From contig JAQGMF010000001.1 in assembly GCA_028292505.1 (NCBI GenBank), positions 1 through 64,000 on the forward strand: a stretch of DNA of 64,000 nt, given 5' to 3'. The stretch comes from Rhodocyclales bacterium. GTDB lineage: Bacteria > Pseudomonadota > Gammaproteobacteria > Burkholderiales > Rhodocyclaceae. Below are positions 7,839 to 26,504 of this stretch, piece after piece; the stretch's first letter is position 1; every line of letters begins with the position of its first letter. Both the position numbers and the translations under genes were made by a program. The notes beneath the pieces were generated by a model, which was given only the letters and a program-made list of their open reading frames with translations, did not search any database and had not been told where the DNA came from.

Positions 7839-9083
7839 ATGCTCAAGCGCATCAAGGTCAATCAGCTTCGCGTCGGAATGTACCTCCACGAGCTTTGTGG
7901 CTCGTGGCTGGAGCATCCGTTCTGGCGCACATCCTTTCTCATTGCGAGCGATAAGGAGCTTGCGCGCATCCGGAAAAGCGGCGTGCGCGAGGCGTGGATC
8001 GATACCGCTCAGGGCCGCGATGTCGATCCGGAGGCGGCGCCAGCGGCGCTCGACAAGCAGGCGTCCGACAAGGAAACCGACAAGGAACTGGCGCGCATCG
8101 GAGTCAGCGCGGTGCTTCCCGAACGCTGTTCCATGGCCGAGGAAATGCAGCGCGCGGCGAGCATCTGTAACAACACGCGCGATGCTGTCGCCACGCTATT
8201 TACCCAGGCGCGCATGGGCCGCGCGCTGGATGCCGCCGATGCGATGCCACTGGTGGAGGATATTGCCGCCTCGGTGTTCCGCAACCCCGGTACGCTGATC
8301 AGTCTGGCTCGGCTGAAAGTCAGTGACGATTACACATACATGCACTCCGTGGCGGTCTGCGCGCTGATGATTGCGCTGTCGAGACAATTAGGTCTCGATG
8401 AAATGCAAACGCGCGATGCCGGTATGGCCGGTCTGCTGCATGACGTTGGCAAGATGTATATCCCGAATGAAATCCTCAACAAGCCCGGACGCCTGACCGA
8501 CGAAGAATTCGAGATCGTGAAGCGCCACCCCGCAGAGGGGCATCGCATGCTGCTCGAAGGACACGGCGTGGGCGAAATCGCGCTGGATGTATGCCTTCAT
8601 CATCACGAGAAAATGGATGGCACGGGTTATCCACATCGCCTCCTTGCCGAAGATATCAGCCTGTATGCACGCATGGGGGCCGTCTGTGACGTGTATGACG
8701 CCATCACGTCGAACCGAGCCTACAAGCGTGGCTGGGATCCGGCCGAATCGCTGCGCAAGATGACGGAATGGTGCAAGGGGCACTTCGACGAGGCGATCTT
8801 TCACGCCTTCGTACGCAGTCTGGGCATTTATCCGGTGGGCTCGTTGGTACGTTTGCAGTCCGGGCGCATCGGCGTGGTTGTCGAGCAGTCGCAAGCGTCG
8901 CTGCTGGCCCCCGTCGTGCTGGTTTTCTATTCGACGCAGCTCAGTGCGCGCTTCGAGCCGGCGCGGGTGGATCTTTCCGATCACGCGTCGGCCGACGGCA
9001 TCGCCAGCCGCGAAGACCCGAACAAATGGAAGTTCGCCGACCTGGATTCGTTGTGGATGAATAGTGGCAAAGTGCCTGCCTGA
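7839..9083 (+). CDS. HD-GYP domain c-di-GMP phosphodiesterase with N-terminal DUF3391
   Basis: Predicted to hydrolyse c-di-GMP to pGpG or GMP. It has 414 residues: a DUF3391-type N-terminus (about 1-130, starting KRIKVNQLRVGMYLHELC), then an HD-GYP domain. The HD metal pair is at 201-202 (LLHDVGK), HHHEKMDGTGYP holds the His cluster and GYP (263-265), and DVYDAITSNRAYK follows. All catalytic positions appear intact. A C-terminal stretch of about 90 residues has the usual PVGSLVRL block. The gene stands alone behind a sigma-28-like promoter, linking c-di-GMP removal to the flagellar regulon; that link is inference from the promoter. Confidence 0.93.
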   Translation: MLKRIKVNQLRVGMYLHELCGSWLEHPFWRTSFLIASDKELARIRKSGVREAWIDTAQGRDVDPEAAPAALDKQASDKETDKELARIGVSAVLPERCSMAEEMQRAASICNNTRDAVATLFTQARMGRALDAADAMPLVEDIAASVFRNPGTLISLARLKVSDDYTYMHSVAVCALMIALSRQLGLDEMQTRDAGMAGLLHDVGKMYIPNEILNKPGRLTDEEFEIVKRHPAEGHRMLLEGHGVGEIALDVCLHHHEKMDGTGYPHRLLAEDISLYARMGAVCDVYDAITSNRAYKRGWDPAESLRKMTEWCKGHFDEAIFHAFVRSLGIYPVGSLVRLQSGRIGVVVEQSQASLLAPVVLVFYSTQLSARFEPARVDLSDHASADGIASREDPNKWKFADLDSLWMNSGKVPA

Positions 9084-9304: not shown

Positions 9305-10720
9305 ATGAACGCTGTGGCAGATTCAATTTTCAATGACTATGTAATCGCTGATCTCAAGCTGGCCGACTGGGGCCGCAAGGAGATTCGCATCGCCGAAACC
9401 GAAATGCCGGGCCTGATGGCCATTCGCGAAGAGTTCGCGAAGGCGCAGCCGCTCAAGGGCGCGCGCATTACCGGCTCGTTGCACATGACCATCCAGACGG
9501 CGGTGCTGATCGAGACGCTGGTCGCGCTCGGCGCGCAAGTGCGCTGGGCATCGTGCAATATCTTCTCGACACAGGATCACGCCGCTGCCGCGATCGCCGC
9601 GTCGCAGGTTCCCGTTTTCGCCGTGAAGGGCGAAACGCTGACCGAGTATTGGGATTACACGCATCGCATTTTCGACTGGGCCGATGGCATCCACTCGAAC
9701 ATGATTCTCGATGATGGCGGCGATGCAACCTTGCTGCTGCACCTGGGTGCCAAGGCCGAGAAAGATCTATCTGTCATTGCCAAGCCAACTTCGGAAGAAG
9801 AGACGATCCTGTTCGCGTCGATCAAGGCCAAGCTGGCGACCGACCCGACCTGGTATTCCGTGCGCCTCGCCGCAATCAAGGGCGTCACCGAAGAGACCAC
9901 CACCGGCGTGCATCGTTTATACCAAATGCATGCACGCGGCGATCTCAAGTTCCCCGCTATCAACGTCAACGACTCGGTCACCAAGTCCAAGTTCGACAAT
10001 CTCTACGGTTGCCGCGAATCGCTGGTGGATGGCATCAAGCGCGCTACCGATGTAATGATCGCTGGCAAGGTTGCCGTCGTGGCCGGTTACGGCGATGTCG
10101 GCAAGGGTTCGGCACAAGCACTGCGCGCACTGTCGGCACAAGTCTGGGTCACCGAGATCGATCCGATCTGCGCGCTGCAGGCCGCCATGGAAGGCTATCG
10201 CGTGGTGACGATGGATTACGCCGCCGACAAGGGCGACATCTTCGTGACCACCACCGGCAATTTCCATGTCATCACCCATGATCACATGGAGCGCATGAAA
10301 GACCAGGCCATCGTCTGCAACATCGGCCACTTCGACAATGAAATCGAAGTTGCGGCGCTGGAAAAATACGAGTGGGAAGAGATCAAGCCACAAGTCGATC
10401 ACGTCATTTTCCCGGACGGCAAGCGCATCATCTTGCTGGCCAAAGGTCGCCTCGTGAATCTCGGTTGCGGCACGGGACATCCCAGCTACGTCATGTCATC
10501 GTCATTCGCCAACCAAACCATCGCGCAGATCGAGTTGTTCACGCGCAATGCCGATTACCCGGTGGGCGTTTACACGCTGCCCAAGCATCTCGATGAGAAG
10601 GTCGCGCGTCTGCAACTCAAAAAGCTCAACGCAGTACTGACCGAGCTGACCGACGAGCAGGCCAAGTACATCGGCGTGCCGCTAGAAGGGCCGTACAAGG
10701 CTGACCACTATCGGTATTGA
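9305..10720 (+). CDS. ahcY: Adenosylhomocysteinase (SAH hydrolase)
   Basis: Reversibly cleaves SAH into adenosine and homocysteine, using bound NAD. The start is ATG 9305, seven bases after AGGAG; the 68 in-frame codons before it lie in the riboswitch. The 471-residue protein has the family blocks: [14 protein letters not shown] near the N-terminus, [13 protein letters not shown], the NAD-binding [19 protein letters not shown], and the C-terminal PFRY-like end DHYRY. It is controlled by the SAH riboswitch and heads the unit ahcY - four-helix-bundle gene - metF. Confidence 0.97.
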
Positions 10721-10722
10721 TC

Positions 10723-11136
10723 GTGAGGAGTCAGGAGGGAGGAGTGAGGAGAAAACACCGTGACTTGCTTGTGTGGCAGCATGCCATTGCGCTGGTTACA
10801 GCGGTTTATCGAATCACTGCCACCTTTCCTGACTCTGAACGGTTCGGCCTGACTGCACAGATGCGCAGAGCGGCAGTTTCGATGCCGTCCAATATTGCGG
10901 AAGGCGTAGCAAGAAACACGACTCGGGAATATCTGCATTTTCTCGGTATTGCGCGCGGTTCTCTCAGCGAACTGGACACCCAATTCGTCATTGCCGCTGA
11001 GTTGGCCTACACGGATCAGATCGCTGTGATTGAAGCCGCCATCAGTGACGTCTTCGGCTTGTTGAACGGACTGATCAATTCCCTGAAAAGGGTGGATAAA
11101 CCATGACCTCCTCACTCCTTACTCCTCACTCCTCAC
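10723..11136 (+). mobile_element. Mobile-looking cassette with 30-bp terminal inverted repeats around a four-helix-bundle gene
   Basis: The left end (10723-10752) and the reverse complement of the right end (11107-11136) match at 26 of 30 bases, both beginning GTGAGGAGT and containing AGGAGTGAGGAG. Between them is one complete gene of the 23S rRNA intervening-sequence protein family. The cassette starts two bases after the ahcY stop and ends inside the first codons of metF, so it interrupts the riboswitch operon without breaking either gene. No transposase is present, so it would have to move with outside help. The repeat match is directly seen; mobility is inference. Confidence 0.6.
10744..11106 (+). 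CDS. Four-helix-bundle protein (23S rRNA IVS / S23 family)
   Basis: A small helical protein of about 120 residues in the family first seen in 23S rRNA intervening sequences and related to the accessory Avd of diversity-generating retroelements. Diagnostic blocks: DLLVWQHAI at the start, then FGLTAQMRRAAVSMPSNIAEG, and a helix with SLSELDTQFVIAAEL. The GTG at 10744 follows a GGAGGGAGGA and gives the usual family N-terminus; GTG 10723 or TTG 10717 are alternatives. The stop overlaps the metF start as ATGA, implying translational coupling. Its function is unknown. No reverse transcriptase or 23S gene is near. Confidence 0.85.
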   Translation: MRRKHRDLLVWQHAIALVTAVYRITATFPDSERFGLTAQMRRAAVSMPSNIAEGVARNTTREYLHFLGIARGSLSELDTQFVIAAELAYTDQIAVIEAAISDVFGLLNGLINSLKRVDKP

Positions 11137-12008: not shown

Positions 12009-14219
12009 TTGGCCAGGAGCGCTTTACGCGTTGGGTTTGTTCTGTTCGATCCGCGTTTCGGCGCGTTCATCTGGACCGTGGGCGAAAACTGCCTCCGCAC
12101 AGAAGCCATGCGGCGTGGCATCCAGTTCACGACGGTGCAGGTGCTTAACGTCGACGAGCAAGCCGCCGAGCTGAGCAAGTTCGTCGAAAAGGGCGTGGAT
12201 GCCATCGTGCTCAAGCCGATGGCGTGTCAGCATCCCGCCATCATCGCGGTCCTCGAGCAAGCCCGGGCAGCGCATATCCCCGTCGTCAGTCTGGACTCTC
12301 CTGTCGACGGCGTGCGTTGTACCGTCGGGTCCGACAATGCCAAGGGTCAGGCCATTGTTGTCGAGCATGTCCTGGCTCGCTTGGGTCATCGCGGCAAGCT
12401 GGCATATTTTTCCGGTGATGAGCGCGTACCCTCTGGCGCAATGCGCACACATAGTTTTCACGAGACGCTTGCGCGATATCCCGACGTGGTCGTGGCGTAT
12501 GAAGCGATGCTCGATTGGACCGCTCTGATCAACCGGCGTGAACAGGGAGCAAAGTTTGCGCGCGAGGCTTTGCGCCAGGTTCCCGACCTCGATGCCATCA
12601 TCTCCGCGACGGACGAAGGAGCGCTGGGCGCCGCCGAGGTCATACAGGAGATGGGTTTGTCGGCGCGTATACTCATCGCCGGCTTCGATGGCATTCCCGA
12701 AGCCTTGCTGGCCGTGGAGTCTGGCCGCATGCTTGCCACGGTCCGACAGTTGCCGCGTGCAATCGCCACGCGCACGCTGGACATCATTAAAGCGCTGATC
12801 GACGGTGAGGACGTGCCGCCGCTGTCGTATGTCGATGTCGAACTCACAACTGCGGCAAAGGTGGGTAGCGCCGCCCTAGATTCGCTGGAACTGATCCCCG
12901 GTCTTATTGTGAATATCGCTTCCAATCACGAAGAACAGCGCAAGTTGCAGCAAACCATCATCACGACGCAGCACAATATTCTGCAAACGGTCATTGCCGT
13001 TTCTACCGCGGTGGGCAGTATCCGCGATCCCGACGACATGATGCACAAGGTCGTGGACTTGCTGCAGGACCGTTTCAAGCTCGTTTGCGCCAAACTCTAC
13101 ACGTTGCCGGACACGCATGACGGCGACGGGGCATTGACGTTGCGGGCATATGGCGGGAAAAATGTAAATGGCATATGTGAAATCCCGTTGCCAGCGCTTC
13201 CCGCCGAAGGTGCAAGCGAAGCGACATTGCGTGTTGCTGCGCCCGCGCCCGACGGCGAGCTTTCCGCGCTATCGGAATTGACGATACCGCTGATCTCCAG
13301 CGAGCATGTGATCGGCGTCCTGGAATTGTATGGCGCCAACGAACACGCGTTCGACGAGGATTCGGTATCGGTTCTCAACGTGATTGCGCATCAGGTCGCA
13401 GTGGCCATCGAGAATGCCAATCTTTATCGCGAGACGGTGTATAACGCGCGGCTCCAGGAAGAGAACCGCGAGAAGCTGATGATCGCGGAAAAAATGGCTT
13501 CGCTCGGCCGTCTCACCGCTGGTATCGCGCACGAAATGAATACGCCGTTGGCTGCGGTGCGCGCGGCGGTATCGGAGCTGGCAAGCCTGGTCAAGGAATA
13601 CAACGAATCGATTGGCGACGATAGCGTCAACGAGGACGACCATCGCGAGATCGCCGCAGAGATGTCGAAGTCGCTGCACCTGGCAGAAAGTGCCGCAGAG
13701 CGGGCATCGGGTTTCGTGCGTGGCGTGAAGTCACAGACGCGCGATCTGAGCGCGCAGCAGCTGGTCAGCTTCAACGCCGTGACGGTGATCCGCGAATCCA
13801 TCCTGCTATTGAGTCACGCCTTGCGTGAAAAGCGTTCGACCACCAACTTCGAACACGAACACGATGTGATGGAAATCCTCGGGTCGCCGAGCCGGCTGGC
13901 GCAGATCATTACCAACCTGGTGACCAACGCGATCGATGCGATGGCCGAACGCGGCGGTGGCAAGATCGATGTAAGGCTCAAGCAGCAAGCAGGCTTTCTC
14001 GTGTTGCAGGTTAGCGACGAGGGTTGCGGCATGCCGCCGGAAGTGCAATCCAAGGTATTCGATCCGATGTTCACCACCAAGCCTTTCGGCGAGGGTACAG
14101 GCTTGGGTCTCACCATCGTGCATGACATTGTCAAGGGCGATTTCAACGGTTCGATCGACATCGACAGCCACGTCGGCGTGGGTACCACCTTCATCATTCG
14201 CCTTGCCAAAGGTCAATGA
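12009..14219 (+). CDS. Cytosolic hybrid sensor kinase: RbsB-like binding domain-GAF-HisKA-HATPase (copy 1)
   Basis: A 736-residue histidine kinase. The start is a TTG at 12009, six bases after AAAGGAG (11996-12002). The protein opens directly with the first strand of a type-1 periplasmic-binding fold (LRVGFVLFDPRFGAF) and carries RbsB-like blocks to about residue 270 (DAIVLKPM, IPVVSLDSP, GFDGIPEALLAV). A short helical linker, a GAF domain (about 345-470) and a coiled region precede the kinase core: phospho-accepting H508 in GIAHEMNTPLAAV, N box NLVTNAIDA, DEGCGMP, and a GTGLGL box. There is no signal peptide or membrane helix, so sensing is probably cytosolic. It lies 48 bases after metF on the same strand and may be co-transcribed with it. 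Confidence 0.88.
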   Translation: MARSALRVGFVLFDPRFGAFIWTVGENCLRTEAMRRGIQFTTVQVLNVDEQAAELSKFVEKGVDAIVLKPMACQHPAIIAVLEQARAAHIPVVSLDSPVDGVRCTVGSDNAKGQAIVVEHVLARLGHRGKLAYFSGDERVPSGAMRTHSFHETLARYPDVVVAYEAMLDWTALINRREQGAKFAREALRQVPDLDAIISATDEGALGAAEVIQEMGLSARILIAGFDGIPEALLAVESGRMLATVRQLPRAIATRTLDIIKALIDGEDVPPLSYVDVELTTAAKVGSAALDSLELIPGLIVNIASNHEEQRKLQQTIITTQHNILQTVIAVSTAVGSIRDPDDMMHKVVDLLQDRFKLVCAKLYTLPDTHDGDGALTLRAYGGKNVNGICEIPLPALPAEGASEATLRVAAPAPDGELSALSELTIPLISSEHVIGVLELYGANEHAFDEDSVSVLNVIAHQVAVAIENANLYRETVYNARLQEENREKLMIAEKMASLGRLTAGIAHEMNTPLAAVRAAVSELASLVKEYNESIGDDSVNEDDHREIAAEMSKSLHLAESAAERASGFVRGVKSQTRDLSAQQLVSFNAVTVIRESILLLSHALREKRSTTNFEHEHDVMEILGSPSRLAQIITNLVTNAIDAMAERGGGKIDVRLKQQAGFLVLQVSDEGCGMPPEVQSKVFDPMFTTKPFGEGTGLGLTIVHDIVKGDFNGSIDIDSHVGVGTTFIIRLAKGQ

Positions 14220-14334
14220 GCGACGTGCGTGGTTGGGCAATGCAGCGTTCTGTGGCGGCTGCCTGCGGCCGCTGCGCTATATCCCGGCCTGCCCGCGTTT
14301 CGACAAGGGAGCCCAAGGCACAGGCGAGCCCTGT

Positions 14335-14547
14335 TTAGTGGCTGCCGTCCGTTTGATGTCTGGCCTTGCATAGCGCGCGGTCGGCTTCATTTAATAATGT
14401 GTATGCCATGTTTTAGAAACATGACGAAGGAATTTATCGAGGCGCGCGAGCAAGATCGAAATCATGTAGCGCCAATACGCTGGCCGATGCGGCACTCGAT
14501 GGACAGGGTAAGTTGCGAGCCTTCCACGGCCTTGCAACGCATGACGT
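14335..14547 (-). pseudogene. Remnant of a GGDEF domain 3' end
   Basis: Read on the minus strand, 14547 to about 14470 encodes KAVEGSQLTLSIECRIG, which aligns with KTVEGQQVSLPVEASIG in the intact REC-GAF-GGDEF protein at 19391-20887. In another frame, 14410 to 14335 encodes NMAYTLLNEADRALCKAR followed by HQTDGSH and a stop, matching NMAHILIDEADRALYRAK. The part between is shortened and interrupted by stops. It abuts the stop of kinase copy 2. It is the decayed tail of a second response-regulator cyclase, evidence that a kinase-cyclase module was once duplicated here. The 115 bases between it and kinase copy 1 (14220-14334) show nothing recognisable. Confidence 0.82.
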
Positions 14548-16806
14548 TCAGGTGCTGCTCTTCGATAGATGCAAGATGAAGGTCGTGCCCTCGCCTATTT
14601 TGGTCTGGACGTCGATGCTGCCGCGAAAATCGCCGGTGACGATGTCATGGACGACGGTGAGGCCGAGGCCGGTGCTTTGACCAAATGGTTTCGTGGAGAA
14701 CATCGGGTCATACATCCTGGTGAGCACTTCGGCGGGAATACCGCAACCGGAATCCGTAACCCGGATCTCTGCCTCGGCGGCGGTCTGGGCAAGCACCACT
14801 TCGATGCGACCGCCTCCCTTGGTGGCGCTGGCGTCGATGGCATTGCCGATCAGGTTCGTGACGGCCTGGGCCAGGCGTGGAGGTGAGCCAAATAGCGCCA
14901 CGTAGTCTTCTGTGAATGAAAATTGCATATCGCAATTTTCCTTGCGCAGTACGTGGCCCAGCAGGACGATGGCTTCCTGGATCACTGGTACGGCGTTGAA
15001 CGTGACGAGTTGCTGGGTCGATATGTCACGGGTTTGTGCCTTCACGCTGCGCACGAATCCGGCAGCTTTTTCCGCCGAGCTGCTCGCCAGGCTTAATGCC
15101 GAATCCATTTCCTTGGCGATTTCGCGATGGTCGTCGGCGTTCACGTCCGGATCGTCAATGGCTTCGCGATACTCCTTTACGAGGGTTGAAAGTTCCAGCA
15201 CCGCCGAGCGCACGGCCGCCAACGGTGTATTCATTTCATGTGCGATGCCGCCGGTCAAACGTCCCAGCGAGGCCATCTTCTCCGCAATCAACAGCCGCTC
15301 GCGGTTCTCCGCTTGTTCCTGCGCGTTGCGTACCGTTTCGGCATACAGGCGCGCGTTGTCTATGGCGATGGCTACCTGTTCGGCAATCGCCAGCAGCACC
15401 ATCTGCGCCTCGGCATCGAATGCCCTGGCGTCGCGACTTTGCAAATCGAGCACACCGATCAGTTGCTGGCCAGACTGCAGTGGCAGCACGAGTTCGGATT
15501 GCACGCCTGGCCGCCGTTGCACGGCTGGCAAGCGCGGGGCGTCCACCTTGTCGTGCCATGTTGCCGGGAGCTGGCTCGCGGCGCACTCCGCGAGCAGCGC
15601 ACTGTCGGTCTGGTTGATCCGGATTTGCGTGCTGCTGGCTGCTTCGCCGCTGGCGGCACGCAGCAGAAAGTCGGATTCCCTGGCCGGGTCAGTCTTGCCG
15701 TCGTCATGGAAGTACAGGGCGACGTGCTCGAGCTCGAAGCGCTTGGCCAGCATGTCGACAACCTGCGACATCATCTGATCCTGTTCGCGAATCTGGCTGA
15801 CGGCATTCGACACCGCGGCGACCGTTTCCAGGATTTTCTTTTGCGTGCTGATGATTGCCTGCTGCAACTGGCGATTGCGTTGATGGTGCTCGGCCAGATC
15901 GCGGATCAAACCCGGCACGGTTTGCAGCGTATCGAGCGACAATTCGTCGGCATTGTCGTGGGTGACCAGATCGATGTCGGCATACACGTAGTCCGGCAGG
16001 TCTTCGCCGTTCAGGGCGCTGGTCACCGCCTCCAGCGCTTTGGCGGCAATGGAGCGCGGCGACTGGCGGGTGGTGGCGGTCATGCGTCCGGTGCGGATCG
16101 CGATGAAGGCTTCGGGGATGGCATCGAAGCCCGAAACAAGGATTTTTCCCGTCAGGCCATGCTCGGCGATGACGCTGGCAACGTCCAGCGCGCCCACGTC
16201 GGTGGCGACGACCACAGCACCCAGGTCCGGGTGCTGGTCAAGCGCCTCCCGCATGTGACAGACACGACGCTCCCTGACTGTGGCAGGCGTTTCCTTGTTC
16301 CAATCCAGTGTCGACCGATATGCCAGATGTATGTCGGGATATCGTGGCAGTAGTTCGAGAAAACCTGCGGCGCGCGAGCGGCCGATGTTGAGGCGTTGAT
16401 CACCTTCGAAGTAGGCGACCTTGCCGCGTCCCCCCATACGTTCGAAAATGTGATTGGCCACCAGCGCTTGCCCCTGCGCATTGTCGGAGCCGACCGTGCA
16501 GGTGTTGATCTCCCCCAGTTTGGAGTCGACGGTGATGATGGGGATCCTGGCGGCGAGTGCGCGGTGCGCCAATGCTAGCAATCTCGGATCTTCGCTATTC
16601 ATCGGTTTGATGATCAGCGCATCGACATTCAGGTTCAGTTGCCGCTCGATCTCGGCAAGCTGTTCGTCGATGGTCGTGACCGGCACGATGGTCAGCTGAA
16701 TGCCTCTACGCTGGGCTTCCGCTTGCATCATGCTAGAGGTCACCGCCCATAAGAAGACGGGATTGATGAGGATGAAGGCAACGTGGATTGAGGCACTCTG
16801 GGTCAT
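14548..16806 (-). CDS. Cytosolic hybrid sensor kinase: RbsB-like binding domain-GAF-HisKA-HATPase (copy 2)
   Basis: A paralogue of 752 residues with the same architecture: an RbsB-like domain from residue 8 (IHVAFILINPVFLWAV) to about 275, a helical linker, GAF (about 350-480), and the kinase core with H523 in GIAHEMNTPLAAV, N box NLIGNAIDA, DSGCGIP, and STGLGL. There is no export signal or membrane helix. It starts 14 bases after the stop of copy 3, so the two form an operon. The ligand-contact stretches differ from the other copies (CTVGSDNAQGQALVANHI is similar, but the first strand-loop differs), suggesting distinct ligands. It has no receiver domain of its own. Confidence 0.88.
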   Translation of the reverse strand: MTQSASIHVAFILINPVFLWAVTSSMMQAEAQRRGIQLTIVPVTTIDEQLAEIERQLNLNVDALIIKPMNSEDPRLLALAHRALAARIPIITVDSKLGEINTCTVGSDNAQGQALVANHIFERMGGRGKVAYFEGDQRLNIGRSRAAGFLELLPRYPDIHLAYRSTLDWNKETPATVRERRVCHMREALDQHPDLGAVVVATDVGALDVASVIAEHGLTGKILVSGFDAIPEAFIAIRTGRMTATTRQSPRSIAAKALEAVTSALNGEDLPDYVYADIDLVTHDNADELSLDTLQTVPGLIRDLAEHHQRNRQLQQAIISTQKKILETVAAVSNAVSQIREQDQMMSQVVDMLAKRFELEHVALYFHDDGKTDPARESDFLLRAASGEAASSTQIRINQTDSALLAECAASQLPATWHDKVDAPRLPAVQRRPGVQSELVLPLQSGQQLIGVLDLQSRDARAFDAEAQMVLLAIAEQVAIAIDNARLYAETVRNAQEQAENRERLLIAEKMASLGRLTGGIAHEMNTPLAAVRSAVLELSTLVKEYREAIDDPDVNADDHREIAKEMDSALSLASSSAEKAAGFVRSVKAQTRDISTQQLVTFNAVPVIQEAIVLLGHVLRKENCDMQFSFTEDYVALFGSPPRLAQAVTNLIGNAIDASATKGGGRIEVVLAQTAAEAEIRVTDSGCGIPAEVLTRMYDPMFSTKPFGQSTGLGLTVVHDIVTGDFRGSIDVQTKIGEGTTFILHLSKSST

Positions 16807-16820
16807 TGGGCGTCTCGACG

Positions 16821-19112
16821 TTACGTGGCGCTGATTGCGCCGACTGGCATTGTTTCGGTCGACAATCTGAGGACGAAGGTGGTGCCTTGCCCTACTGTGC
16901 TTTCGATGTTCAGCGTCCCTCTGAAGTCGGTCGTGACAATCTCATGCACGATGGCCAGGCCCAGCCCCGTTCCCTTGCCATAGGCCTTGGTGGTGAACAT
17001 GGGCGTCAACACCTCATCTAGGATCTCCGTCGGAATACCGCAGCCCTGATCGCTGACACGCAGCTCCAGGTACCGCTCTTGCGGCAGCAGTGTCAACGTA
17101 ATCGGACAGCCGCCTTTTTCCTGACAAGCATCGATAGCATTGGTGAGCAGATTGGTGATGACCTGGGCCAGGCGTCCAGGCGAGCCATGCAGGACGGGCT
17201 GCTCCACGTGAGATTGCAAAGTGGCCGGGCAGTTGGCTTGCCGCAGCGCGTGGCTGAGTAGCAGGATCGATTCCCGGATAATCGGAACAGGATCGAAATT
17301 GATATGTTCGCGTGTCGATAGGTCGCGCGTCTGCGACTTGACGCCTTGCACGAAACTGGCGGCGCGTGCGGCCGAACCGCTGGCAAGGCTCACGGCACTC
17401 TTCATCTCTTGCGCAATACCGTGGTGATCTTCGGCATTGACTTGCGGATCGTCGATGGACGATTCGTACTCGTCGATCAATTGTCCAAGCTCGCTCATTG
17501 CCGAGCGGACTGCCGCCAGAGGCGTATTCATCTCGTGGGCGATACCCGCCGTAAGACGGCCGAGAGAGGCCATCTTTTCTGCCGTCAGCAGTTTCTGCTG
17601 GTTCTCGACCTGCTCCTGTGCGCGACGAAGTGTTTCTGCATAAAGGTTGGCGTTCTCCAGCGCGATGCCGACCTGATGCGCGATGGCCTGCAACACCGTG
17701 AAAGTATCCTGATCGAAAGCGTGGTCCTTGAGACTTTGGATGTCGAGCACGCCGATTGCCCGAGTACCCGCGCTCAGCGGGATGACCAGCTCCGAGCGTA
17801 CATCGGACATGCGCTGCACGCAGCCCGCCTCGCCGTCTTTCAGATCGTGAGCGATGTGTGCTTGCCTGTCCTGTATGCACCGCGCCATCAACGCGCTTTC
17901 GCCGAGTGCGATGGTGGCGTGCGCCTGCGTCGTCAATTGCATCTGCGGGCCGATATTGAAGGCTTTCAATGCAATATGGGTCGGGACATTGCCGTCGTCA
18001 TAGGGCTCGACCAGGTACAGGGCTGTGTAGTCAAAATCGAAACGCTGACAGATCAGCTCGATCACCTGGTCCATCAACTGGCCAGGGTCGCGAATGTGGC
18101 TGACTGCGCTCGAAACGGCAATGACCGTTTGCAGGATGCGTTGCTGGTTTGCGATGACAGCTTGCTGCAAGCGCTGCTGGACCAAGTGATTGTCCGCCAG
18201 ATTGAGAATGAGCCCTGGCATCATTTGCAATGCATCCAGGGAGGACTCATACACGTTGTCTGCCGTGATCAGATCCATTTTGGTAAAAATCATCGGAGGC
18301 AGGTGCTCGCCGCGCATCGCAGCGAGCACGGCGTCCAAAGTATGGGAAGCAATCAGATCCGGTCGCTGTCTGAGCGTGACCACCATCCTGTTGTCTCTCA
18401 CCGCCAGCAAGGCTTCCGGTGCGCCGTCGAAGCCAGCGACCAGGATCTTGCCGGTCAAGCCGGCTTCCTCAATTACTTCGAGTGCCCCCAGGGCCTCCTC
18501 ATCGGAGGACGCTATCAGGGCCGCGAGATCTGGCGTTTGCGCGAGTATCTTGCGCATATGCCGCGCGCCTTCCGCCCGACGCGAGACATGGGTAGTCCAT
18601 GCCACCGTAATTTCATGACATAGCGATATCTCGGGATAGCGGCTCAGGGTTTCCGTGAAACTCCTGGCGCGCAACACGCCAGCGGGCACGCCCTGGTCGC
18701 CCTGGAAGTAGGCGACCTTGCCGCGTTTGCCCAAGCGTTCGAATATGTATTCCGCCGTCATGGACTGACCCTTGACGTTATCGGAGCCGACCGAGCAACT
18801 TACCTGGCAGTCCGAAATTTTCGAGTCCAGCGTGATGACGGGAATGCCGCGCAGATGTGCCTGATGCAGTATCGCCGCGATATCGGCGTCGTGCGCGGAC
18901 ATCGGCTTCATCACCAAGGCATCGACAGATTGTTCCAGTAGTTGCACCAGCGCGGCGGCCTGTTCGGCGACAGTCTGCACGGCGACCGTCGACAGGCGCA
19001 CACCGCGTTGCCTCGCCCCGGTGTGCAGACAGTTCGCCGTAAACGTCCACAGGAACGAGCCCACGTAGGTGTCGAACAAAACCAGACCAACATGGGGTTG
19101 ACGTTGATTCAT
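16821..19112 (-). CDS. Cytosolic hybrid sensor kinase: RbsB-like binding domain-GAF-HisKA-HATPase (copy 3)
   Basis: The third paralogue, 763 residues from ATG 19112. A 38-codon upstream extension of the frame has no domain content and is rejected, although no strong ribosome site marks 19112. It has an RbsB-like domain (HVGLVLFDTYVGSFLW onward), a GAF domain with PLSAGTRAIGVLDIQS, and a kinase core with H526 in GIAHEMNTPLAAV, N box NLLTNAIDA, DQGCGIP and GTGLGL. It lies 278 bases downstream of the REC-GAF-GGDEF gene on the same strand and 14 bases upstream of copy 2. That order makes the cyclase its most likely phosphotransfer partner, which is inference. Confidence 0.88.
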   Translation of the reverse strand: MNQRQPHVGLVLFDTYVGSFLWTFTANCLHTGARQRGVRLSTVAVQTVAEQAAALVQLLEQSVDALVMKPMSAHDADIAAILHQAHLRGIPVITLDSKISDCQVSCSVGSDNVKGQSMTAEYIFERLGKRGKVAYFQGDQGVPAGVLRARSFTETLSRYPEISLCHEITVAWTTHVSRRAEGARHMRKILAQTPDLAALIASSDEEALGALEVIEEAGLTGKILVAGFDGAPEALLAVRDNRMVVTLRQRPDLIASHTLDAVLAAMRGEHLPPMIFTKMDLITADNVYESSLDALQMMPGLILNLADNHLVQQRLQQAVIANQQRILQTVIAVSSAVSHIRDPGQLMDQVIELICQRFDFDYTALYLVEPYDDGNVPTHIALKAFNIGPQMQLTTQAHATIALGESALMARCIQDRQAHIAHDLKDGEAGCVQRMSDVRSELVIPLSAGTRAIGVLDIQSLKDHAFDQDTFTVLQAIAHQVGIALENANLYAETLRRAQEQVENQQKLLTAEKMASLGRLTAGIAHEMNTPLAAVRSAMSELGQLIDEYESSIDDPQVNAEDHHGIAQEMKSAVSLASGSAARAASFVQGVKSQTRDLSTREHINFDPVPIIRESILLLSHALRQANCPATLQSHVEQPVLHGSPGRLAQVITNLLTNAIDACQEKGGCPITLTLLPQERYLELRVSDQGCGIPTEILDEVLTPMFTTKAYGKGTGLGLAIVHEIVTTDFRGTLNIESTVGQGTTFVLRLSTETMPVGAISAT

Positions 19113-19390
19113 GACCGGACGTCCGAGGAAGTTCTTCTGCCTGCAAAGCGGATGTAGCGAACAAGGTTTGTTACGCACATAGCGGCCATCGAACACGGAA
19201 AGAGTGGTTTGCGAAAGCCGACTCAAAAAGCGCCAGGGAATTAAACCTTTCGAGGTTTGAAGTGCTAACGGCTCAGCACTGAAAAAGCTGAGGGTGGGGA
19301 AGTTTGGGCGGAAGGGACGCAGGCGCGCGTAGGGATACCATGCCGATCAATCGGGCGATCAGCCATCGCACTTCGCAAAATGACGCGTCT
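19113..19390. other. Gap between the cyclase regulator and kinase copy 3
   Basis: Contains two small inverted repeats, AAACCT-TTCG-AGGTTT (19243-19258) and AGTGCT...AGCACT (19261-19280). The first may be a weak terminator or pause for the cyclase gene, the second an operator. No clear promoter was recognised. Confidence 0.35.
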
Positions 19391-20887
19391 TCAGGGCTTC
19401 CCCGGCAACTCGCTCTTCGACAAGGCTCCCCATTGAATGGGCTCGCCCTGTTCGTAGTGACAGCCATCTAACTGATGCTTGGCTCGATACAACGCGCGGT
19501 CGGCCTCGTCGATCAGGATGTGGGCCATGTTCTCGAAATAAGACAACGGAATAGGGCGTGGCACCTTCGACAGATCGAACTCGTGGGACCGCAATACGCT
19601 GATACCGATACTTGCCTCGACGGGCAGGGAGACTTGCTGGCCTTCCACCGTCTTGCCGCGCAGCGCTTCGAGGATTCGCTTGGCGATGAGCTCGCCACCT
19701 TGCGAGCCGGGTTCGCGCAGCAGGACGGCAAACTCGTCGCCGCCGAAACGCCCGCAGATGTCGATATCCCGAATGCTTTGACGCAGTACTTTGCCCATGA
19801 TGGCAAGCGCCCGGTCACCGCCCAGGTGTCCGACGCTATCGTTGATCTGCTTGAGCTTGTCCAGGTCCACCATCAGTACGGACAAAGGGCGTTGGGCGCG
19901 GAAAGCCGCGCGCAGCTCGCGCAGGAACCACTGGTCGAAGAAGCGGCGGACGTAGACGCCGGTGAGCGGATCCAGCGTGGCCATCTCGTAGAGTTGGGAG
20001 TTGCGAATGGCGACGGCTGCCTGATTGGCAAATATCTGCAGCAGTTCGATATCGCGCTGCATGTTGATCGAGCGGTCCAGGTAGACGATGCCGATGACGG
20101 CTTCACCGACGCACAGCGGCACAATGGTCGAATTTTCGACTACGCATATGTCATGTTGCTGCAGGGTGGTACGCACGACTTCCAGCTCTTGCTCATCGAG
20201 GCAGTCGGCGGCGTGTTTGTAGCCGGCGAAGCGACCGGTACTGGCGTGGATGTCGAGTTCCATTTCGTCGGCGACCATGACGAGGAAACCTTCGGCTTGT
20301 GCTTCGCCGGAGCGTTGTACGCTTTTCGGGTCGATGGCCAGGAAGGAGTTCGCCGAGCCGAGCAGGCCGGCGATCTGCAGGATCACGCCCTGAAGCAGAT
20401 CGTCTAGCGGCTGGATCTTGTGCAGCTCGGGTGTCGCATCGAGGATATAGCGCAGGCCTTGGCGACTCTTGTGCAGCAATTGCACCGTGTAGGCCGCTTT
20501 GAGTCCGACATCGGTCCAGATGAGCAGTTTTTCCGGCCCTTCGCTCTTGTCGTGATAGCCCTGAATGTCCAGTCTCCGGAGCAACTCGCGCGGCGGTTGC
20601 TCACTGGCATAGCCGGTTTGCAGGATCACTTGCGTGTAGTCGTTGAACTTGCGAAGCTCTAATACCGTTTCTTCACCCGTCATGCCGGGCATGAAGTAAT
20701 CGAGCAACAGCAGATCGACATGTTGTGCGCGTAGCATTTCCAGCGCCTTGGCGCCGCTGTCGGCCCATAGCACCGTATGCCCTTCGCGTTCGAGCAGGTT
20801 GCACGTGGCTTGTGCGTAGTCGGGGTCGTCCTCAGCAAGCAGGATGGTCCAGCGAGAAGCGTTCGCTACTTTTGACTTCCGTGCCAT
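19391..20887 (-). CDS. REC-GAF-GGDEF response regulator diguanylate cyclase
   Basis: A soluble two-component output protein of 498 residues from ATG 20887 (the frame extends upstream to 20944 without support). The receiver domain has D20/D21, phospho-acceptor D63 in LLLLDYFMPG, T91 and K114. A middle region of about 170 residues resembles DUF3369/GAF (VIGIVYLDRS). The GGDEF domain has intact GGDEF at 382-386 and an RxxD inhibition site (RDID, 373-376). Phosphorylation should switch on c-di-GMP synthesis. It is upstream of the kinase copies 3 and 2 on the same strand, and a decayed relative of its 3' end sits after copy 2. Confidence 0.92.
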   Translation of the reverse strand: MARKSKVANASRWTILLAEDDPDYAQATCNLLEREGHTVLWADSGAKALEMLRAQHVDLLLLDYFMPGMTGEETVLELRKFNDYTQVILQTGYASEQPPRELLRRLDIQGYHDKSEGPEKLLIWTDVGLKAAYTVQLLHKSRQGLRYILDATPELHKIQPLDDLLQGVILQIAGLLGSANSFLAIDPKSVQRSGEAQAEGFLVMVADEMELDIHASTGRFAGYKHAADCLDEQELEVVRTTLQQHDICVVENSTIVPLCVGEAVIGIVYLDRSINMQRDIELLQIFANQAAVAIRNSQLYEMATLDPLTGVYVRRFFDQWFLRELRAAFRAQRPLSVLMVDLDKLKQINDSVGHLGGDRALAIMGKVLRQSIRDIDICGRFGGDEFAVLLREPGSQGGELIAKRILEALRGKTVEGQQVSLPVEASIGISVLRSHEFDLSKVPRPIPLSYFENMAHILIDEADRALYRAKHQLDGCHYEQGEPIQWGALSKSELPGKP

Positions 20888-23181: not shown

Positions 23182-25449
23182 ATGACAGCACAGCAGACCA
23201 TCGTCAACGATGTGAGCGGACTCAATCCGATGCCGGTGTGGGTCGTGTCCGCACCGACCAGCATCGAGGATGTGCAGGAAGCGATGCGCCGTACCAATGT
23301 GCCGATCTCCATCGGTGGCGGCCACTTCAGCATGGGTGGGCAAACGAGTAGTCACGGCAGCTTGCATCTCGATATGCGCGAAATGAACAAGGTGCTGCTG
23401 TTCGCGCCGCAGGACAAGATCATTCGCGTGCAGGCCGGCATTCGCTGGTGCGACATCCAGAAATTCATCGATCCGCACGACCTGTCGGTCAAGATCATGC
23501 AGACCTATGCCAACTTCACGGTCGGTGGCTCGCTGTCGGTGAATGCGCATGGTCGCTACATGGGCGCGGGGCCGGTGATCCTGTCGGTGCGCTCGATCCG
23601 GCTGGTGCTGCCCAACAGCGATCTCATCGACGCCTCGCCGACGCGCAATGCCAATCTTTTTTACGCCGCCATCGGTGGTTACGGCGCCGTCGGCGTCATC
23701 GTCGAGGCCGAGCTGGACTTGGCAGACAACTGCCGCCTCGAACGCATCGAAACCAAGATGCCGTTGCGCAAATATGCCGAATGGTTTGGCAAGCAGGTGC
23801 GCAATGCGCCGGCAGTCGTGCTCCACAATTCGGACATCTACGCGCCGCATTATTCGCGTGTTCGTGCGGTGAGCTGGGTCGAAACCAAACGTCCCGTGTC
23901 GGTGCCGCATCGTTTGCAGCCGCGTCGCACGATGTATCCGCTGCAGCGCTATTTTCTGTGGGCTGTTTCGGAGACGCCGCTGGGCAAATGGCGCCGCGAG
24001 CACATCGTCGATCGCGCCGTGTATTTCAGCCGCCCGGTTCACTGGCGTAACTACGAAGCTGGCTACGACGTCGCCGAACTGGAACCGTTGTCACGCAAGA
24101 AAAGCACCTACGTGCTGCAGGAATACTTTGTCGCCGCCAAGCGCATCGACGAATTCCTGCCCGGCATGATCCGCGTGCTGCAGCGCCATGACGTTAACAT
24201 ATTGAATATTTCCGTTCGCCACGCGGCGGCCGACCCAGGCTCCCTGATGGCCTGGGCGCGCGGCGAGACCTTCGCCTTCGTGCTGTACTACAAGCAGGGC
24301 ACGGGCGACGATGCACGCGAACGCGTCGCGGTGTGGACGCGCGAGCTCATCGATGTGGTGCTCGGCGTCGGCGGTACGTACTACCTGCCTTACCAGCCGC
24401 ATGCCACGCCGGAACAGTTCCATCGTGCCTATCCGCGAGCACGCGAGCTGTTTGCCCTCAAGCGCGAACTGGATCCGCACTACCGCCTGCGCAGCGTATT
24501 GTGGGACAAGTATTACGCACCCACGCTGCAGGGTGAAGATGGTACCCGCGCCGACGAGTCCGAGCACATGGGCGAATTGGATGAGTTGGGTGAATTCCAC
24601 CGCGTGTATCACGATGTCGTCCGTCGCGATGATTTCTATCGTTTCCTGCAGAATATCTTCCATCTCTATCCGGAAGAGCGCTTCCACGCACTCATCAAGA
24701 GTGGATGCCAACGGCATGACGACGACTCGTCGATCTATCGCTACGTCCAGCAGTTTCTGCCACGCATCAAGCCCTTTCTCTCCGAGCTGACTTACGCCCT
24801 GCCGGCACTGCGCACGCAGAAGCGCGAAATGGCGCGCCAGACGCTCGAATTGCTCGGTGAGCGCCACAATATCAGCGGCTACATCGAGATCGGCACGACT
24901 GGTCGCTACATCAGCGCATTGCGGCGTCATGTGCGCTTCCGCGGCGATGTGATCCTGCTCAACGACGTCGCGCCAAGCAACTCACCGGCCGACATCATGG
25001 AGCGCGGCGGCTTCGGACAGGTCGGCCGCTGGCTGCCGCTCGATCTCTACGCACCGATCGGTCCAGACGCCGTGCGTGACAACAGCATCGATGTGGTGAG
25101 TTGTTACATCGGCCTGCATCACATCGAACCGGCTGACCGTGCCGCCTTTCTCGCTTCCATTCATCGCGTGTTGCGGCCGGGTGGCTTGTTCATCCTGCGC
25201 GATCACGATGTCACGACGCCGGAGATGCGCACTTTCGTTTCGCTGGTTCACACCGTTTTCAATCTCGGTCTGGGCGTGCCCTGGGAAACCAATTTCGAGG
25301 AGCCGCGCTATTTCGCCTCGGTCGACGAATGGGTGCAACGTCTCCATGCCGCGGGCTTCAATGACACCGGCGCGCGGCTGCTGCAGGAGAACGATCCGAC
25401 ACACAATGTGCTGATGTCATTTACCAAGCGCGGCCTGTCGCCATCGTGA
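23182..25449 (+). CDS. Fusion of an FAD-linked oxidase and a class I SAM methyltransferase
   Basis: A 755-residue soluble protein. Residues about 15-190 form an FAD-binding PCMH domain (ISIGGGHFSMGG, NAHGRYMGAGP, AIGGYGAVGVIV), followed by a sugar-lactone-oxidase-like cap to about 450, ending LDPHYRLRSVLWDKYY. After a linker, residues about 560-745 form a Rossmann methyltransferase: motif I-like GYIEIGTTGRY, then VVSCYIGLHHI, and VLRPGGLFILRDHD. The two activities in one chain suggest consecutive steps on the same substrate, perhaps a sugar or lipid, but the substrate is unknown. The next gene overlaps by 4 bases and encodes an exported protein, so they likely act together. Confidence 0.85.
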   Translation: MTAQQTIVNDVSGLNPMPVWVVSAPTSIEDVQEAMRRTNVPISIGGGHFSMGGQTSSHGSLHLDMREMNKVLLFAPQDKIIRVQAGIRWCDIQKFIDPHDLSVKIMQTYANFTVGGSLSVNAHGRYMGAGPVILSVRSIRLVLPNSDLIDASPTRNANLFYAAIGGYGAVGVIVEAELDLADNCRLERIETKMPLRKYAEWFGKQVRNAPAVVLHNSDIYAPHYSRVRAVSWVETKRPVSVPHRLQPRRTMYPLQRYFLWAVSETPLGKWRREHIVDRAVYFSRPVHWRNYEAGYDVAELEPLSRKKSTYVLQEYFVAAKRIDEFLPGMIRVLQRHDVNILNISVRHAAADPGSLMAWARGETFAFVLYYKQGTGDDARERVAVWTRELIDVVLGVGGTYYLPYQPHATPEQFHRAYPRARELFALKRELDPHYRLRSVLWDKYYAPTLQGEDGTRADESEHMGELDELGEFHRVYHDVVRRDDFYRFLQNIFHLYPEERFHALIKSGCQRHDDDSSIYRYVQQFLPRIKPFLSELTYALPALRTQKREMARQTLELLGERHNISGYIEIGTTGRYISALRRHVRFRGDVILLNDVAPSNSPADIMERGGFGQVGRWLPLDLYAPIGPDAVRDNSIDVVSCYIGLHHIEPADRAAFLASIHRVLRPGGLFILRDHDVTTPEMRTFVSLVHTVFNLGLGVPWETNFEEPRYFASVDEWVQRLHAAGFNDTGARLLQENDPTHNVLMSFTKRGLSPS

Positions 25450-26504
25450 TAATGACAAAGGCATTTAATCGCAGCCGTTTTGTGTGCCTCGTCCTCACGG
25501 CATTCGTGCTTTTCTGCAATGTCGCGAAGGCCGACCCGGTGGCACCGCCGGAGCAGCGCAGAGGTGTGGAGCAAACCTATCTCACTTTTCCGGAGTGGTA
25601 TCTCGTGCATAGCCCGGCCGAATATGCCGGCTATCTCGCGGCCGACCGTTCGCCGAGCGACTTCCCTTTCTGGGGACACATCGGCCAGTTGTGGAGCAGT
25701 TACGCTCACGTCACGGCGGCAACGCGCGATCGGCCGCTCAACATCGGCTACCACGTCATGATCATGGTCATCGCCACCAGCACCACGGTCGAATACGCAT
25801 TGCGCTCCGCCTACGAAATCACGATCGGCCGCCTCGCCGAATTGACGCGCGCGCATGCGCCAACGAGCGAAGAACGTTACGCAGCGAAGACGGCACAGGA
25901 CTATGTCGATTTCATTCGCGTGCGGCCCTGGTACGAGTTCGATTTCTGGTCGCGTCTCAAGGGCGTGTGGACCGAAACCGGCAGCACCGGACCGGATGGC
26001 GTGCGCAAGTGGGAACGCAAATATGCGCTGACGACCGAATACGGCGTCAAGGCTGTTTATGCATATTTCATAAAAAAAATGACGCAGGCGACCTACGAGG
26101 CGCCACGTCCCACAACAGCGGTCCTGGTCGACCGCTGGGTCGACGGCATCGCCGGCAACTGGCCGGAAATGCAGAGAATACGCAGCCTTCCCAGCGGCGG
26201 TGAACTGGTGCTCCTACCGCGTTATGACGCCTTCAAGACAGTGGCCGTCGCTATCGCGCGCACGGGCGCCAACTTCGCGGAAGTCGCGGGGAACGGGCCC
26301 GACATGCGCATCCTCGTCAGTGTCATCGTGCCGCGCGATTGGCACCCGGATAGCGAAGGCTCTGCGACACTGTTCGAGCAACCGATGCTGACCTTGCCCG
26401 AGCAGAAGCGCGTCGCGCTGACCGTGCCCATTCGCAACCTCGCCCAGACCCTGCGTGAGCTCGATGGCATGCAGGTCACGATAGAACACGTCTACGACTA
26501 TTGA
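25446..26504 (+). CDS. Exported protein of unknown function, partner of the oxidase/methyltransferase
   Basis: A protein of about 350 residues starting at GTG 25446, overlapping the previous stop, or at ATG 25452. An N-terminal hydrophobic segment (about 10-28) ending in AKA looks like a Sec signal peptide. The mature part has EQTYLTFPEWYLVHSPAEYA, a second hydrophobic stretch (HVMIMVIATSTT) and a conserved RPWYEFDFWSRLKG block. I recognise no domain. The overlapping reading frames imply tight co-expression with the fusion enzyme upstream. Confidence 0.75.
   Translation: MIMTKAFNRSRFVCLVLTAFVLFCNVAKADPVAPPEQRRGVEQTYLTFPEWYLVHSPAEYAGYLAADRSPSDFPFWGHIGQLWSSYAHVTAATRDRPLNIGYHVMIMVIATSTTVEYALRSAYEITIGRLAELTRAHAPTSEERYAAKTAQDYVDFIRVRPWYEFDFWSRLKGVWTETGSTGPDGVRKWERKYALTTEYGVKAVYAYFIKKMTQATYEAPRPTTAVLVDRWVDGIAGNWPEMQRIRSLPSGGELVLLPRYDAFKTVAVAIARTGANFAEVAGNGPDMRILVSVIVPRDWHPDSEGSATLFEQPMLTLPEQKRVALTVPIRNLAQTLRELDGMQVTIEHVYDY

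Follow-up and report, generated by a model that had tools for sequence, protein, structure and literature searches.

Can a sugar-receptor domain of the transport type act inside the cell as the sensor of a histidine kinase, and can such a kinase set the level of cyclic di-GMP (c-di-GMP)? The question is raised by positions 12009-20887 of a 64,000-nucleotide stretch of DNA from a Rhodocyclales bacterium, referred to here as the window. A 274 kb contig begins with the window; the genome to which it belongs measures 3.8 Mb and is about 93% complete. Four intact genes are found at these positions, three for paralogous kinases (HK1, HK2 and HK3) and one for a response regulator (RR) with receiver (REC), GAF and GGDEF domains. 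The locus is a real and rare genus-level case of a cyclase under probable two-component control, and its sensor is unusual in being both cytosolic and of the transport type. We propose, with a probability of roughly 0.55, that the soluble kinases sense an intracellular sugar-like metabolite through an RbsB-type domain, phosphorylate RR and thereby switch on c-di-GMP synthesis. The genes and their sensor domains are as follows.

12009..14219, + strand: HK1, soluble kinase of 736 residues; RbsB-type domain, linker, GAF, HisKA (His508) and HATPase
12009..12863, + strand: RbsB-type sensor domain of HK1, residues 1-285, from Pfam and alignment
14548..16806, - strand: HK2, soluble kinase of 752 residues with the architecture of HK1; His523
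15949..16806, - strand: RbsB-type sensor domain of HK2, from Pfam and alignment
16821..19112, - strand: HK3, soluble kinase of 763 residues with the architecture of HK1; His526
18252..19112, - strand: RbsB-type sensor domain of HK3, modelled at a predicted local distance difference test score (pLDDT) of 94.2; top structural match 2ioy
19391..20887, - strand: RR, 498 residues, intact; REC (Asp63), GAF/DUF3369 and GGDEF

A reading made earlier from the sequence alone (the sequence-only reading) had placed three RbsB-GAF-histidine kinases and a REC-GAF-GGDEF protein here, and the open reading frames (ORFs) and Pfam domains agree with it. Peripla_BP_4 is matched in each of the three kinases (E 6e-34 to 2e-39), along with GAF, HisKA and HATPase_c. 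HATPase_c exceeds the Pfam cut-off in all three; HisKA exceeds it in HK1 but falls short in HK2 and HK3. HK1-HK3 have intact H, N, G1, F and G2 boxes, and the motif HEMNTPLAAV is present in every copy, as that reading had said. In RR, Pfam matches Response_reg, DUF3369/GAF and GGDEF, the first and last of these above cut-off. The receiver Asp63 and the GGDEF motif at 382 are intact, and the RDID ahead of GGDEF presumably represents the RxxD inhibitory site. The best NCBIfam match of RR is the PleD family, below that family's cut-off. HK1 starts with TTG, preceded by AAAGGAG, at 48 nt from the preceding metF. The start of HK3 is most likely ATG 19112 rather than TTG 19226. HK2 follows HK3 across a gap of 14 nt, and on its upstream side HK3 is separated from RR by 278 nt. 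Scans for promoters and terminators found fewer matches than in shuffled sequence, and operon boundaries are not claimed. A recent foreign origin was rejected on composition, as the four genes have 58.8-60.2% G+C and the window 60.3%.

The location of the sensor domain is central to the question. We aligned the six known kinases of this type, three from the window and three from a sister genome (G001), with 24 binding proteins encoded in other genomes. These 24 were drawn from 29 loci (L063-L091), with L066, L076, L077, L087 and L089 excluded by eye as near-copies. A leader of 22-31 residues with a hydrophobic core is found in 23 of the 24 binding proteins and in none of the six kinases. Only 7-8 residues precede the first sensor strand in the kinases, except for one sister copy with 19, mostly polar. 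The claim that the kinases lack a signal peptide and a membrane helix was borne out by this alignment and by hydropathy, which showed no leader and no span between sensor and kinase, though no purpose-built predictor of signal peptides or membrane spans was applied. An overlooked upstream start had been named as a way in which the claim could fail, and no in-frame start upstream adds an export signal or span to any of the three kinases. Since the kinase is C-terminal and no span precedes it, the sensor is placed in the cytosol, and a cytosolic RbsB-type domain is well supported. The binding protein without a leader (L072 1411-2325, - strand) is an RbsB-like protein of 305 residues with a script-chosen start; it is possibly a stand-alone cytosolic binding protein.

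Export or membrane attachment through a cryptic N-terminal segment is nevertheless suggested by the hydropathy of HK2, which over 19 residues reaches 1.79 at residues 5-23 and peaks at 1.85 at residues 195-213. However, residues 5-23 form the first sensor strand in the alignment and the model, and residues 195-213 lie in the sensor core. The maxima of HK1 and HK3 are lower, at 1.38 and 1.31, and no upstream extension supplies a leader, so we regard export as very improbable. An N-terminal helix-turn-helix was likewise not found, as too few residues lie ahead of the sensor, and the Pfam matches of the kinases include no DNA-binding family.

The fold of the domain points to a sugar receptor. The sensor of HK3, the only one modelled alone, gave a confident model from a 30-sequence input (pLDDT 94.2, predicted TM score (pTM) 0.89). 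Its best match is the ribose-binding protein 2ioy (Z 36.6, 1.7 Å over 272 residues; Foldseek 5.6e-26), and five E. coli RbsB entries follow at Z 35.6-35.8, which answers the comparison with RbsB proposed earlier. A sequence profile of the sensor also matches 2ioy (1.7e-45). We mapped 15 ribose-contact positions, 13 of them listed in PMC6858440 and two (R90 and R141) named in the same paper. All six kinases retain the equivalents of Asp89, Ser103, Arg141, Phe214, Asp215 and Gln235. In place of Phe16 and Phe164 they have Trp, which also occurs at these positions in 3/24 and 13/24 binding proteins, respectively. Ile132 is replaced by Asp, found in 5/24 binding proteins, and Asn64 by Lys, found in 0/24. 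Position 15 is Ile, Leu or Phe. From the fold and the pocket, a sugar or sugar-like metabolite is a plausible signal.

The three copies in the window appear to share most of this pocket. Eleven of the 15 contact positions are identical among them, compared with 90 of the 281 domain columns (hypergeometric P ~9e-4, a rough value, as the columns lack independence and structural constraints often fix positions of this kind). The four that vary are RbsB positions 9, 13, 15 and 190. The pocket thus seems largely common to the copies and shifted away from that of the ribose-binding protein. Because the predicted sugar contacts are mostly common, a single class of ligand is more likely than three, and the copies probably recognise one ligand or closely related ones. 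The sequence-only reading had the ligand-binding stretches differ and suggested different inputs; the former fails at the pocket, and the latter is not supported. The same reading had called the kinase cores nearly the same. Pairwise identity is 45-49% in the sensor, 34-38% in GAF, 58-66% in HisKA and 52-58% in HATPase, so that the cores are more alike than the other domains, yet far from near-identical. If the inputs do differ, GAF is the likelier site of the difference.

The sensor content of the genome is consistent with an internal ligand. Besides the kinases, Peripla_BP_4 has two matches above cut-off, both LacI-type regulators by eye, and two more below. The absence of an importer receptor from the two above-cut-off matches in a genome about 93% complete would fit a ligand that arises inside the cell.

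The link between kinases and cyclase depends on the sister genome. RR is the sole receiver match in the window, as had been noted. This proves little alone, since the whole genome has 96 receiver matches (95 above cut-off) and HK2 as a query finds 44 places in its own genome, counting itself and its two paralogues. G001 is the only other genome of the genus found. Its three kinases are split over two loci on contigs C47 and C23, ordered as follows, with the C47 genes named by their likeness to window genes.

G001 C47: HD-GYP gene, a minus-strand gene, ahcY, metF, HK1, a convergent RR, ABC1-family gene
G001 C23 (L015 1056-7665): RR, HK3, HK2, Fic gene

A copy of RR adjoins kinases at all three known loci. 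Identity between RR copies is 86.8% for window and C47, 85.4% for window and C23, and 87.4% for C47 and C23. Full-length RR matches at 1e-70 were sought in 81 genomes, and 3/3 adjoin these kinases. The pairing of kinases and cyclase is therefore supported by two separate sister-genome loci, each with its own RR copy.

A mechanism can be proposed from these features. An intracellular sugar-like metabolite would bind in the cleft of the RbsB-type domain, and the two lobes would close around it. The closure would be relayed by a helical linker and GAF to HisKA and HATPase, presumably in a kinase dimer. The phosphoryl group would then pass to Asp63 of the neighbouring RR. Phosphorylation would act in the direction of activation, and the GGDEF domain would make c-di-GMP until the product inhibits it at the RxxD site. 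Signalling helices, a class that may or may not include this linker, are described in PMC1592074.

Several observations weigh against this proposal. The linker (residues ~285-337) is predicted to be helical, but its pLDDT is under 50 in the full-length HK1 model. That model was too poor between domains (pLDDT 61.2, pTM 0.30), and its PDB matches were not used. In the pocket, the positions of Ser9, Asn13, Phe16, Asn64, Arg90, Ile132, Phe164 and Asn190 are altered in all six kinases. Arg90 is replaced by Ser, found in 1/24 binding proteins, Asn13 by Ala, Val or Ser, and Ser9 by Phe or Ile. Asn190, which is reported to be among four residues crucial to ribose recognition in RbsB, is replaced by Thr or Ser, found in 0/24. 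The changes at Asn190, Arg90, Asn13 and Ser9 make ribose itself doubtful as the ligand. On a narrower list, 7/10 contact positions are identical among the window copies, and P rises to 0.014, a value as rough as the first. Two further points concern the partner of the kinases: the 96 receiver matches in the genome, and a REC-GAF-HisKA-HATPase hybrid, present in both genomes of the genus, whose receiver is identical to that of RR at 104/140 positions.

The pocket changes would also fit an RbsB-type domain that has lost small-molecule binding and instead takes part in dimerisation or binds a protein partner, with GAF as the sensor. The N-lobe contact positions 9, 13, 15 and 90 are altered in most or all six kinases, and GAF is the most divergent domain among the copies, which could be expected if it sensed different inputs. 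However, all six retain the equivalents of Asp89, Arg141, Phe214, Asp215 and Gln235, and the contact positions are far more often identical in the three copies than the domain columns at large. We consider a sensor of this kind unlikely.

The receiver evidence bears on a second alternative, in which the kinases do sense metabolites but signal chiefly to a different receiver, such as that of the hybrid, within a branched phosphorelay that has c-di-GMP as a side output or lacks it. The hybrid is the main rival partner of the kinases and is encoded outside the window.

L053 6919-8595 (G000:C51:182918-184594): REC-GAF(DUF3369)-HisKA-HATPase hybrid
L054 9571-11379: the hybrid of the sister genome

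It has the input module of RR placed on a kinase output. The large number of receivers and the likeness of this one to that of RR speak for such a relay, whereas the hybrid lies ~162 kb from the kinases on the same contig and adjoins none of them, and RR copies adjoin kinases at 3/3 loci. This alternative is improbable, if a little less so than a sensor role for GAF alone.

A bolder form of the proposed sugar-to-cyclase pathway would describe a genus-specific family. A ribose receptor would have moved to the cytosol, been joined to a GAF-kinase, been triplicated with one altered pocket (Lys64, Ser90 and Thr/Ser190 in RbsB numbering) and been wired to a shared REC-GAF-GGDEF protein, so that an internal sugar-type metabolite is reported to c-di-GMP. 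That metabolite is possibly phosphorylated, or derived from the methyl cycle, a possibility raised by the position of HK1 behind ahcY and metF. We hold this form tentatively, at somewhat below even odds. The confidence placed in it and in the simpler proposal is limited mainly by the low-confidence linker helix and by the alteration of half of the ribose contacts. In either form, a soluble, well-modelled and triplicated sensor beside a cyclase should purify easily, and it puts the question of which internal metabolite sets c-di-GMP within reach of direct tests. A transport receptor domain also seems to have passed cleanly from one compartment to another.

The history of the cluster allows two accounts. 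The window may be a C47-type locus to which HK3-HK2 was added, or an older cluster may have been split in G001; either would fit the gene orders. As to the ancestral site of HK3-HK2, the RR copies are about equally distant and point neither way. The C23 block of RR, HK3 and HK2 may lie in a variable region. The Fic-family gene beside it has no match in the window's genome, which shows little. Among 21 genomes with metF, compared over ~1.5 kb on each side, ahcY lies upstream in 16 and HK1 downstream in two, both of this genus. At most, this placement of HK1 after ahcY and metF hints at a link with the methyl cycle.

The full architecture is rare and at the genus level within the searches made. 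Counts of its spread include the window's own genome, and the genome sets are samples. The earlier suggestion to survey genomes for the architecture yielded the second genus genome and nothing further in the class and phylum samples or on plasmids, within the limits given here. A linker query found it in 2/61 relatives. A linker profile matched 3/369 class genomes, and the two extra genomes held ordinary tandem binding proteins, which were rejected. The full-length profile matched 2/297 family genomes and 5/398 phylum genomes, scored on the best three or fewer candidates per genome in the family and two or fewer in the phylum, so that a divergent relative could be missed. The four extra phylum genomes match from position 400 on, in the GAF-kinase part alone. 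A sensor profile matched 55/349 phylum genomes at 1e-25, with at most seven candidates scored per genome. Besides the three kinases of the window, the frames listed there are at most 698 residues long, against ~730 needed for the architecture. Six long frames (698, 654, 478, 476, 465 and 461 residues; 473-residue G731 excluded) resemble ordinary binding proteins with upstream read-through. Among 864 matching plasmid records, 0 reach 80% cover of the sensor and GAF query; two with 70% cover (22.8% identity) span a binding protein and its transporter gene. A contig scan with two narrow peptide patterns, whose absences are weak for that reason, found 15 loci. Two are in Rhodocyclales bacterium RYN_555, a metagenome-assembled genome and the nearest named relative. 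Of the 13 outside the genus, 12 carry a LacI-type helix-turn-helix, called by eye and not by family search, and L028 is a partial frame. Phyla beyond Pseudomonadota were covered through the contig scan and the plasmids.

The pieces of this system are known. In XylFII-LytS, ChvE-VirA and LuxP-LuxQ, an RbsB-like receptor likewise governs a kinase, with receptor and kinase as separate proteins and the receptor outside the cytoplasmic membrane, whereas HK1-HK3 combine both in a single soluble chain. The BT1754-type hybrid sensors have a receiver and a DNA-binding domain within the same protein as the sensor. They share with HK1-HK3 a type-I sugar domain and a kinase in one chain, but their fructose-binding sensor is periplasmic (entry title of 2x7x), whereas HK1-HK3 have a cytosolic sensor followed by GAF and a separate cyclase. 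The HK3 sensor model matches 2x7x at Z 33.1 and 1.8 Å, the XylFII-LytS complex 5xsj at Z 32.1 and ChvE 3urm at Z 33.3. LacI/GalR regulators also have a cytosolic type-I sugar domain, and the motif CS/TVGSDN is common to the kinases and to 12 of the 13 scan loci outside the genus (by eye). In contrast to them, HK1-HK3 lack a helix-turn-helix, have a kinase output and carry a domain nearer to RbsB-type receptors. With RbsB/CUT2 receptors the kinases share the fold and part of the pocket; they differ in the lack of a leader, in the fusion to GAF and kinase, in Lys at Asn64 and in Thr/Ser at Asn190. RR resembles REC-GGDEF regulators (PleD-like, REC-DUF3369-GGDEF) in its receiver and intact GGDEF, but it has one receiver with DUF3369/GAF between, and partner kinases of the HK1-HK3 kind were not found in the papers searched.

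Judged by titles, the openings of abstracts and selected passages, a description of a soluble RbsB-GAF-kinase was not found in a full-text collection that leaves out most subscription journals, which makes this absence weak. Cytosolic LacI-type sugar domains, receptor kinases and REC-GGDEF cyclases thus appear not to have been described in this combination. Periplas_BP, which also occurs in LacI-family regulators, is listed as a putative sensory domain of c-di-GMP proteins with no experimentally validated role (PMC8846402). Peripla_BP_4 is treated as the domain of LsrB and LuxP (PMC12268683), and DUF3369 occurs with REC in HD-GYP proteins (PMC9756655).

Other genes lie near the locus. A DUF3391-HD_5 (HD-GYP-like) gene at 7839-9083 is found between metK and ahcY, and its position near ahcY and HK1 is kept in G001. 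Its product is likely a c-di-GMP phosphodiesterase, which would bring genes for synthesis and breakdown close together. Between ahcY and metF, an ORF at 10717-11136 belongs to the 23S rRNA intervening-sequence protein family (PF05635, 1.2e-32). It is bordered by 29-nt inverted repeats that are 90% complementary, finds no counterpart among the other 20 metF loci examined and looks like a small inserted unit. Beyond the kinases and RR, an ORF of 352 residues at 25446-26504, with no Pfam match at 1e-5, directly follows an ORF of 755 residues at 23182-25449. The latter joins an FAD-binding domain (PF01565) to a methyltransferase, an uncommon-looking fusion that also adjoins the locus in G001.

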